Assembly: GCA_964030475.1 (NCBI GenBank)
Contig: CAXIPT010000002.1
Location: 11,882,426-11,946,425 of the forward strand
Direction of reading: 5' to 3'
DNA from: Tethya wilhelma
Taxonomy: Eukaryota > Porifera > Demospongiae > Tethyida > Tethyidae
DNA length: 64,000 nucleotides
The translations under genes were made by a program, and so were the position numbers. The notes beneath the pieces were generated by a model. It made no database searches. It was not told the origin of the DNA and was given only the letters and a program-made list of their open reading frames with translations. Below are positions 43,071-46,483 of this stretch, piece after piece; the first letter of the stretch is position 1, and the number at the start of each line of letters is the position of its first letter.

Positions 43071-46000
43071 TCAAAACCGAGTACTCATCCTACCAGTAGA
43101 GGCATCATTGATGTTCCGTTCAGCTTGTGTCAACATATATAGTATCAAAGTAAAGTCAGGCCTCTCTTCTGGTTGGTACTGCCAGCATTGCTGCATGATA
43201 TTGTACACCTCACTTGGACAGTCTACTGGCATCTCCATGCGATAGCCCGAATCAACCTGAAGTTCAATGATAGTACATCAATTATTGAGATTTCAACGGT
43301 GAGTCAATCAGACATATATTTGTTTTAGCTTCATAGCCCGGCAGGAGCCTCTACCAGTATCACTTTGCTCTAGGAAGGATGCCTTATTCTCAAGTCTTTT
43401 AATATTTTGGCATATATAGGGCTACCATGTTTGATATGGACTCCGGGGAAGCAGTACGAGTTCTTAGCCTCATACTCACTCAGGCTCCTCTCTCCCCATG
43501 TACATAAGGAGGGAGGAGCCTGGGTGCGAGAGCTCTGGTGAGAGTTTATAATTTTATATAGACTGATTAATATCTTAATAATAATTATATACTTACCTCT
43601 GTGGTGACTTGCATGTTGGCCATGCCAGGATAAGGAGTCATTCCACATGAGAATGCCTCCCATAGCAGGATGCCAAAACTCCAGGCATCACTTGCCGAGG
43701 TGTATTTTCCTTTCAAAGCCTGATTTACAATAAAGACAATAACATTTGTAAATAATTAATTAGGTGAACAGTATCCCTATTGCTATGGCAACCAAACACT
43801 TATGTCCCGGACTCAACTAGATTGCATGTCAGCTGGCCTAACGACTTGACATTTTTGTTACTGTGTCCTGCACAGCTGCCACAGTAAGCTGAATTAATTA
43901 CCTCAGGGGCAGTCCATCTGAGTGGTAATGATTTATGTGAAGACATGACATATATTCCACCCTCGCGACTCATTCCAAAGTCAGAGATCTTGACGCTATT
44001 GTTCTCTCCAACCAAACAGTTTCTAGCGGCCAGATCACGATGGATGCAACTCATCGATTCCAAATACTCCATTCCCTATCAAATTAACACAACACATAAT
44101 ATACTGATCAATGAGTATGTCCAAGCAAACAATAGACTGCATGGCTTAATACTTATACTGTACCTTGCAAGCATCAATGCACATTTTACACAGCTTTCTC
44201 TTTGACTCTGAAAAGCCTCTCTTCTTCAAAAAGTTTAAAAAGGACCCTCCTGGCAGGTACTCCATCACAATGTAGGTCTGCTTTCTACTAAGGTCTTCAC
44301 TTAGTCCTATCAACCTGTATGGAAAGAATTATTGTACTGAAAACATTGACTGTTTGTGTAATGATAGTGAAATGTGTACTTATAGTAGTTTCCTCATTGT
44401 TGCTATAGTAAAGTGGTGAGTTCAATAAGGAATATCAAATGCCATTCTTAGACTGTACATGCCAGTAAAAACTCTTGTAAATGTTTCCATGCAAGCGCTG
44501 ACTCCCCCAAAATCAACCTCATGCACACACATGCACCCTGTACCTTTCTGTGAGTGACTTACTTCACAACATTAGGATGATCGTATTTGCTTAGAGTCTC
44601 AGCTTCCTGGAGAAAGCTCTCCCTCTCTTGTATTTCACTAGACCTGCAGGTCTTCACAGCAACCTTCTGGCCTGTTGAGATGAGCCTGGCTATGAAGACA
44701 TCACCAAATGCTCCTTTGCCAATTTTATTGCCCACTTGAATATTTGAAAATGCAATACTCCCATATTTGATGATTGGTTTAGAAATTTTGACTTGAGATT
44801 TTTCGGTGAGAGGGTTATTAGTCTCTACGTGATAGTCAAGGAGTTGCTTGATACTGCGAAATCTTATGGTACCAATGTGATACTGATTGGGTGCTTCAGG
44901 GTCAAATTCCTATCAGAAGAATGGGTGTGCATTAATTGGTATAATATTGTTCAAGTGTAGCTCTAATCGAGATATGAGGGACATAAATGTGACTGTACAG
45001 TGTGTGTCAGTGTGTGTGTGTGTGTGTGTGTGTGTGGTTTTGTGCATGCATGCAATGTGATTCCAATGTTAGTTAGTCTCTCAACTCACATCTGGTATCT
45101 CTTGTATGGGGAAGTGTCTCCCTCTTCCCTCCCATCGACAGGTCAACACATACTGGTTCTGTTTGTCGGAATACCTCACCAGATACTCACCATTGTTCTT
45201 ACATTTCCCCTCCGCCAGCTGCCTCTTCAAGCATCCAAAGTACCACTTCTCTTCTTCTAGTGGCAGCTCAGGTGGCTACAGTTATAATGAAACATACTTC
45301 AAACAGGATTGAATGACTGATTTTCACATTGTAATAAAAATTACAAGAACTACATACATATACTATGTTTTGCTTACCAGTGAATAGTACACGGTATCCA
45401 AGTCATTGTTGCTGTCCAGTCGTTTGTACTGTTTTTCTCTCTTTCTAATCACTGCTCTCCTCCTCAAAGCCGGCACAACGCGATTGTGAACCACAGAGAT
45501 GATTGTTGCTGAGCTCACACTGCCGAGCAGAGCACCAGCTGCAGACCCCACACCTATCCCAATGGGTGCCCCCACTCCTAACGTGGGTATCCCCACCAGA
45601 GCTCCCCCTACACCGGCACCAACACCAGCTCCAATCACAACCCCAAGAGCTGCTCCTCCTGCCAGGGATTGTAAGACAGAGTTCACTTTGACCTGACCAC
45701 TCAGTAAGAGAAGTTGTGGTAGTGCCTCCAAGTTGCACTTTCGAAGGATCTCTCTGTGTAGTGTTCCCATCCAATCTCTCTCGGTCGGTAGGGGGACAGA
45801 GACATCCAATCCAGCCGGGATGGCCCGTATGGCATTAGGATTGATTGAATCGGGGATCTCGGCATTATGTGGTAGAACTTTGACTCCAACTGACGACTGC
45901 CTGAGACACTTTTCAAAATTTGTGGCATAGTTCTTCAGTAGACGTTCGTAGGGCATCATGGTGCTTGTTTGCACCTGATTCTGTAAACTTCGTTGGCAAA

Positions 46001-46483
46001 CGTGAGGACTAGTACTGTCCGTGTCCAAATCTGCTTCCCGAATGCCTGAGTCAAAGTCTGTACGATTCTTCTGTCAGTGATGCCTATTCTACCAGATGGT
46101 TGTAGACTTGCACAGTAGAGCAAAAGATCGGCTTTTCCTTTCGACTTTTCCTCGAGATCGAGTAAAATCACAGACTCGTCCAAATCGAGGGAGTCAAAGC
46201 CAGGTGTGTCGAGAACATCAATAGTCACCCTCCCAACTGTGATACGATTGTGTCGTGTCACAGAGGTGGTTGTGGCGTTGCCGTCGTGACCAACCTTTGC
46301 AGCCATCTCTCCCGTGAGAGCAAGGATGTTATTGAGGAGAGTCGACTTGCCCACTCCGCTGCGACCGGCGAGAGCTATCACAAGAGGTTTGTCAACATTC
46401 TCATCGATCCAGTTGGTGAATTCTTGCCTCATACCATCGACGTTTTGGAGTTCTATGACATCAAGAGGATTCCTACTTGCCAT
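43071..46483 (-). CDS. Fusion protein: P-loop GTPase, glycine-zipper segment, SH2, tyrosine kinase
   Basis: Seven exons on the minus strand. Exon 1 (46483-45378) starts [13 protein letters not shown] and encodes a GTPase: G1 [16 protein letters not shown]3 [15 protein letters not shown], and VLVLTFAN where a G4 motif would be (no NKxD visible). An (L)PTERDW region follows, then a glycine-rich hydrophobic segment ([20 protein letters not shown]..., [16 protein letters not shown]) that could enter membranes. It ends TVYYSL at donor GTAAGC, phase 0, 102 bp before the SH2 exon 45275-45090 ([30 protein letters not shown]). Kinase exons 44909-44563, 44314-44164, 44075-43902, 43719-43597 and 43256-43071 carry [28 protein letters not shown], and RWTAPE, giving 388 codons plus stop. 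The SH2-kinase half is a paralogue of the FES-like gene at 47.6 kb. Exon 1 has a one-base frame break near 45960-46030. Confidence 0.8.
43454..43532. mobile_element. Probable degenerate TAGCCTC palindromic element
   Basis: TAGCCTCATACTCACTCAGG... at 43454 faces ...GGAGGAGCCTGGGTGCGAGAGCT ending near 43532. It is the same layout as the better-preserved copies at 52.0 and 58.8 kb, but no target duplication is evident. It lies in an intron of the GTPase-kinase gene. Confidence 0.5.

Follow-up and report, generated by a model that had tools for sequence, protein, structure and literature searches.

A FES-type tyrosine kinase gene of the sponge Tethya wilhelma that probably has an AIG1/GIMAP-type GTPase and glycine-zipper segment in place of F-BAR

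The kinases FES and FER carry an F-BAR domain at the N-terminus, a membrane module that lies ahead of an SH2-kinase unit without SH3. In the parts of one report that treat its regulation, FES may be controlled by F-BAR membrane association together with oligomerisation, and the authors speculate that clustering promotes autophosphorylation; the same parts link FES-type kinases to immunity in vertebrates (PMC2572732). A link to vertebrate immunity is described for GIMAP GTPases in the relevant sections of a second report, which states that GIMAP2 dimerises when it binds GTP and proposes a scaffold-forming role for membrane GIMAPs (PMC8201404). Among sponges, GIMAP-family genes of D. avara respond to microbes, according to the pertinent passages of PMC11229196, and AIG1 genes are reported there, and as far as known in the corresponding part of PMC7053062, as not found in Amphimedon.

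Here, we examined a window of 64,000 nucleotides from Tethya wilhelma (G000:C2:11882426-11946425; genome of 124.6 Mb in 204 contigs), a species that adds a second sponge with many AIG1 genes to D. avara. With a probability of roughly 0.6, the window contains a gene for a cytoplasmic tyrosine kinase of FES type that carries, in the place of F-BAR, a GTPase of AIG1/GIMAP type with a glycine-zipper membrane segment. It would share with FES/FER the SH2-kinase unit lacking SH3 and the placement of a membrane module ahead of SH2, but differ in the nature of that module. With GIMAP/IAN (AIG1) proteins and Toc33/Toc34 it has in common the AIG1 domain and a hydrophobic segment past the G domain, whereas here the segment is glycine-rich and internal, and SH2 and tyrosine kinase domains follow. 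LRRK/Roco proteins also hold a GTPase and a kinase in one chain, and the GTPase is thought to control the kinase; unlike the fused protein, they have a Roc-COR GTPase, a kinase of another class and no SH2. To our knowledge, no physical link between GIMAP GTPases and FES-type kinases has been described.

The earlier note on this DNA knew of no described kinase with an AIG1/septin-like GTPase and a membrane-type glycine zipper at its N-terminus, a statement that needs qualifying. Proteins that carry a protein kinase domain N-terminal to AIG1 are published for Biomphalaria glabrata and are also known from salmon or fungi (PMC7053062). These proteins, too, hold AIG1 and kinase in one polypeptide, but in the reverse order, and the portion of that report concerned with them mentions no SH2 and gives the kinase only as Pkinase. 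What stands is the particular combination: AIG1-SH2-tyrosine kinase was not found among the best matches listed in text searches of the open-licence literature, as represented by the text portions returned, and the words AIG1, GTPase and Fes are absent from the main text of a study of the holozoan tyrosine kinome (PMC8662651).

Exon map of the gene and its FES-like neighbour

The features of the gene, in the order of its reading, are as follows.

46483-45378, minus strand: exon 1 as a whole; AIG1-type GTPase, glycine-rich hydrophobic stretch and basic tail, then a phase-0 donor
46483-45956, minus strand: first part of exon 1 (ORF A); ATG and AIG1-type GTPase by Pfam AIG1, the final few codons lying beyond the frame change
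about 45990-45960, minus strand: frame change in exon 1 between the frames of ORF A and ORF B; the first copy on contig C9 is open here
45990-45378, minus strand: second part of exon 1 in the frame of ORF B; remaining GTPase, glycine-zipper segment and basic tail to the donor, from C9 identity and hydropathy
45377-45276, minus strand: intron 1; 102 bp, GTAAGC...TGTAG, phase 0
45275-45090, minus strand: exon 2; opens SH2 (Pfam SH2), with what is presumably the phosphotyrosine-binding Arg in EYLVRYS at 45188-45168
44909-44563, minus strand: exon 3; end of SH2 and kinase N-lobe, glycine loop at 44720-44697, VAVK at 44663-44643
44314-44164, minus strand: exon 4; kinase
44075-43902, minus strand: exon 5; catalytic loop HRDLAARN at 44042-44019, DFG at 43982-43965
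43719-43597, minus strand: exon 6; kinase C-lobe
43256-43072, minus strand: exon 7; end of kinase and terminal stop codon

Most of what the earlier note had read from this exon map was borne out. Its P-loop GTPase and glycine-zipper stretch are supported alike by motifs, by Pfam and by hydropathy: ORF A contains the P-loop GRSGVGKST (46366-46340), DTPGFDS (46210-46190) and, at the G4 position, LTFAN (46006-45992), it matches Pfam AIG1 with 53.3 bits (E 3e-14, curated cut-off 27), and the hydropathy profile places the glycine-rich segment at 45686-45486. The phase-0 donor GTAAGC is present at 45377, and 102 bp further on a phase-0 SH2 exon begins that leads into a complete kinase, together 388 amino acids ending at 43072 without an internal stop and retaining the catalytic Lys, HRD, DFG and an activation-loop Tyr. 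In a Pfam domain search, which the note had proposed, SH2 (E 1.8e-11) and tyrosine kinase (E 1.6e-88) exceed their curated cut-offs, as AIG1 does. The exon 1 described as a single 1.1-kb exon holds in its span, 46483-45378 ending at the donor, but consists of two frames rather than one open frame, since ORF A (46483-45956) and ORF B (46073-45363) occupy different frames with a switch at about 45990-45960 by comparison with the C9 copy.

Among PDB entries, the SH2-kinase part matches FES/Fps best (324.4 bits, residues 3-369), ahead of EGFR entry 9p9u (287.2 bits, kinase part only) and Src/Abl-type kinases (at most 231 bits). Upstream of the fused gene lies a paralogue that matches FES even better (406.7 bits).

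47599-50190, minus strand: FES-like paralogue
50190-50005, 49644-49301, 48887-48743, 48547-48365, 48246-48121 and 47754-47599, minus strand: its SH2-kinase exons
52820-52341, minus strand: putative exon 1 of the paralogue; rich in Pro, with a phase-0 end and a partial, sub-threshold FCH match

As previously claimed, the SH2-kinase exons of the two genes correspond closely, with 60% identity and the same boundary and phase 0 at the start of the SH2 exon. The F-BAR start attributed to the neighbour did not hold up: its candidate first exon contains just a fragment of 47 FCH residues, scoring 21.3 bits (23.1 in a genome-wide search) against a cut-off of 27.8, and neither the ORFs of at least 70 codons read by eye nor a genome-wide FCH profile search gave a further F-BAR exon between it and the SH2 exon. 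An N-terminal exon swap at the phase-0 intron following tandem duplication would be the simplest history of the pair. On the plus strand at 53100-53960, reading of the sequence gave the impression of a possible separate gene, divergent from the FES-like paralogue.

A second locus, and whether the halves form one gene

A genome search with both halves of exon 1 led to contig C9, where 465 codons of a first copy read open from AIG1 through the zipper into the beginning of SH2. Its GTPase is 74% identical to ORF A (residues 7-167) and its zipper part 69% identical to ORF B (residues 33-224); exon 1 of this copy, 371 amino acids long, is open across the site of the frame change in the window. In the joined C9 model AIG1 scores 58.1 bits (cut-off 27), and the 11 Pfam families found at E up to 0.001 do not include FCH, so that no F-BAR domain was recognised. 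The intron before SH2 has the same position and phase 0 in three copies, measuring 102 nt in the window and 75 and 76 nt on C9; the 75-nt GT...AG stretch within the open frame of copy 1 corresponds to the window intron, while the 76-nt intron of the partial copy 2 contains stops. In the alignment of the window with copy 1, coding sequence matches up to the donor and again past the acceptor, and the intron aligns poorly except for its first bases. The 75-nt intron of copy 1 (L047:4131-4205) is in frame and stop-free, and its retention would encode the very hydrophobic ACCIMIIICIVPPMVIILFMQ between zipper and SH2.

Since kinase exons, among the four C9 loci searched, lie only downstream of the second, partial and broken copy (from L048:5337), that copy 1 splices to kinase exons past this partial copy is something we infer. 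At none of the loci examined was an end-to-end intact fused gene demonstrated, the window copy being frameshifted and copy 1 having exons 1-2. The second copy of the GTPase exon is divided between contigs C1 and C9 (L049:3880-4353 and L048:2919-3523). Both of its break points are flanked by a 558-bp segment, 97.5% identical and in opposite orientation, and a DDE_1 transposase ORF lies at L049:6416-8293. The split reflects either a transposon insertion with rearrangement or a misassembly; a transposon with long terminal inverted repeats may account for the broken copy on the basis of the one 558-bp inverted match, with misassembly as the alternative.

As assembled, the window copy would not be expected to yield the full protein, its frame change pointing either to a pseudogene or to a sequence error. 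That it is a decaying pseudogene of a genuine fusion family, with the protein made only by the C9 locus or in other species, has a substantial chance of being right, though somewhat below even: copy 1 exon 1 and the database protein P0050 are both open across the very place where the window exon changes frame, and a second C9 copy is already broken. Against decay, the window's kinase exons are intact in their catalytic Lys, HRD and DFG, dN/dS is low on either side of the frame change, and an error in the sequence at base level is just as possible, isolated Ns being present in the window's simple repeats. The idea that a GT...AG stretch of 14 bases, seen by eye at the frame change, might be a very small intron was dropped because 14 bases are too short for an animal intron.

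Whichever applies to the window copy, the two halves could still belong to separate genes, namely a GIMAP-type GTPase on its own, terminating at 45363, and an SH2-kinase with its first coding exon elsewhere, the donor being coincidental. We consider this unlikely. In its favour, the in-frame stop that the earlier note had named does end at 45363 (ORF B, 46073-45363), 15 bases into the proposed intron, and the database entries for the proteins P0050 and P0051 are ORFs on their own, which is how a caller ignoring introns would list them. The window SH2-kinase, however, has no Met before residue 195, which already lies within the kinase, and a TAG codon directly precedes exon 2; lacking an early Met and preceded by an in-frame stop, the SH2-kinase needs an upstream exon ending in phase 0, for which exon 1 is the nearest candidate. 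This argument from the missing start is weaker on C9, where the introns of both copies have in-frame ATGs, that of copy 2 lying 13 codons before the SH2 exon, and where the first Met of the SH2-kinase in the partial copy is residue 70. Further evidence against two genes comes from the identical phase-0 intron in the three copies and from copy 1, which reads from GTPase into SH2 without a stop.

Divergence between the two loci, calculated with the codons around the window's frame change excluded, also speaks for a single unit. Between window and C9, dN/dS is 0.17 in the GTPase part (161 codons), 0.30 in the second part (190 codons) and 0.24 in the SH2-kinase (384 codons), so that both halves are under purifying selection; dS is 1.2 in the GTPase part, near saturation, 0.76 in the second part and 0.73 in the SH2-kinase, and is saturated in the comparison of C9 with the FES-like neighbour. 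The corresponding dN values (0.20, 0.23 and 0.17) are similar in the GTPase and SH2-kinase halves, which fits joint duplication and argues against independent genes. Plain arithmetic from the matches in the 124.6-Mb genome, at least 109 for AIG1 and at least 64 for SH2, predicts about 0.06 chance cases of an AIG1 match followed on the same strand by SH2 within 2 kb. Comparison of both match lists by eye gave two such loci, window and C9, which count as one event because they are paralogues; the arrangement is nonetheless more than chance, because intron position and phase recur unchanged at another locus in this genome. The joining of GTPase, zipper, SH2 and tyrosine kinase, which the note had proposed, is supported, and as a gene family, by this second locus. 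On the sequence evidence, which comprises the exon structure, its conservation between the loci and the purifying selection acting on each half, the fusion of the GTPase to a FES-like kinase is very probably real.

Identity of the GTPase and its relatives

By sequence comparison, the GTPase is of AIG1/GIMAP type, in agreement with the AIG1-like assignment of the earlier note and with the AIG1 scores of window and C9 models. Membership of the IRG (p47) class was not found, IIGP scoring 12.6 bits in ORF A against a cut-off of 24. The canonical G4 motif is NKxD; here the position reads TFAN. The AIG1 family is large in this genome, with 68 matches to ORF A and at least 109 to the AIG1 profile at E up to 0.001, part of the latter sitting in very long frames that possibly represent other GTPase classes. 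On contigs C2, C3 and C11, weak AIG1 matches fall in open frames as long as 3133 codons, which perhaps encode very large members of a different GTPase class.

Searched among proteins of about 250-800 amino acids, the GTPase region matched 14 proteins, 7 of them close AIG1 relatives; at 291-435 amino acids, none is long enough to be fused. Against candidates of fused length it matched one protein, of 435 amino acids, and none fused; all 48 protein matches to the full 757-aa fused model list kinase domains and cover 19-39% of the query. The searches with the 757-aa model and at fused length scored the best 7997 and 7998 candidates by word sharing. The absence of a full-length fused protein is weak evidence, as the database may not hold sponge proteomes.

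The closest relatives are P0050 (409 aa, 67% identity over 99% of the searched region; 82% identical to ORF A and 69% to ORF B) and P0051 (379 aa, 62% identity over 93%), both different from the copies in this genome. Each retains the tail, and their ends, V-R-T and V-S-AFIYQYL, coincide with the expected site of the donor; among the 26 other AIG1 ORFs of the genome (27 loci, one without an ORF), 1 has V[RS] in its last 12 residues. These ends suggest that joined proteins may exist elsewhere. The predicted model of P0050 has a mean pLDDT of 64.5, with values of 70-93 in most blocks of ten residues between 51 and 300 and the zipper as its least confident part (25-37 at residues 311-360). Its top structural matches are Toc33 (Foldseek E 7.0e-10, TM-score 0.67), GIMAP2 (E 7.5e-9, 0.57; TM by target length) and Toc34, so that a septin/Toc-like fold is predicted, from a moderately confident model, for this database relative of the window copy.

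Possible mechanism and other AIG1 fusions

If the fused protein is made, the GTPase would bind GTP and then dimerise or polymerise on a membrane at which the zipper holds it. Such assembly would cluster SH2-kinase units and allow mutual phosphorylation of their activation loops, after which SH2 would dock on phosphotyrosine, so that tyrosine signalling would be gated by GTP state and membrane site. GTP-dependent membrane assembly would thus cluster the kinase in much the way that F-BAR is believed to act in FES, and a GIMAP-type module in the place of F-BAR would keep that logic while adding a nucleotide switch; the new layout could make the kinase GTP-controlled. Tentatively, and with rather more doubt than confidence, we see here a class of GTP-gated, membrane-inserted tyrosine kinases in which the F-BAR oligomeriser of FES has been exchanged for one of GIMAP type, a class that has persisted at two loci, and probably in related species too, and in which an immunity-type GTPase drives phosphotyrosine signalling directly. 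The fused protein may have an immune role.

It is improbable, in our estimation, that a real fusion acts instead through membrane damage or cell death, the zipper inserting or forming a channel and the kinase regulating the GTPase. Ten GxxxG motifs in residues 273-317 of the C9 copy, inside a hydrophobic stretch of about 55 residues, would suit such an output. On the other side, several AIG1 ORFs of this genome end shortly past a glycine-rich tail (for example L020, L025, L027 and L032, by eye), nothing in this analysis shows pore formation, and the sections of PMC8201404 that discuss the hydrophobic tails of GIMAPs describe them as membrane anchors.

Should GTP-gated clustering of the kinase be confirmed, the gene would be a case of domain replacement that preserved a function, that of a membrane oligomeriser ahead of an SH2-kinase, and altered its trigger. 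A GIMAP-FES polypeptide in an early animal would also make the effect of AIG1 assembly directly accessible to study, its output, tyrosine phosphorylation, being measurable.

Further combinations with AIG1 were seen in this genome. At L057:2557-4743 (minus strand), a single frame of 729 amino acids has an N-terminal protein kinase, for which Pkinase gives a higher score than PK_Tyr_Ser-Thr does, and an AIG1 GTPase at the C-terminus. Relatives of this GTPase part (63% identity) lie at C1:21787893 and C1:21793473. At L055:1146-4451 (minus strand), a frame of 1102 amino acids has AIG1 followed by three fn3 domains; the part ahead of residue 425 matches no Pfam family at E up to 0.001. As a separate observation on cathepsin-like genes, one of the three read (L067) has Ser at the position of the active-site Cys, which we take to be a resemblance to silicatein.
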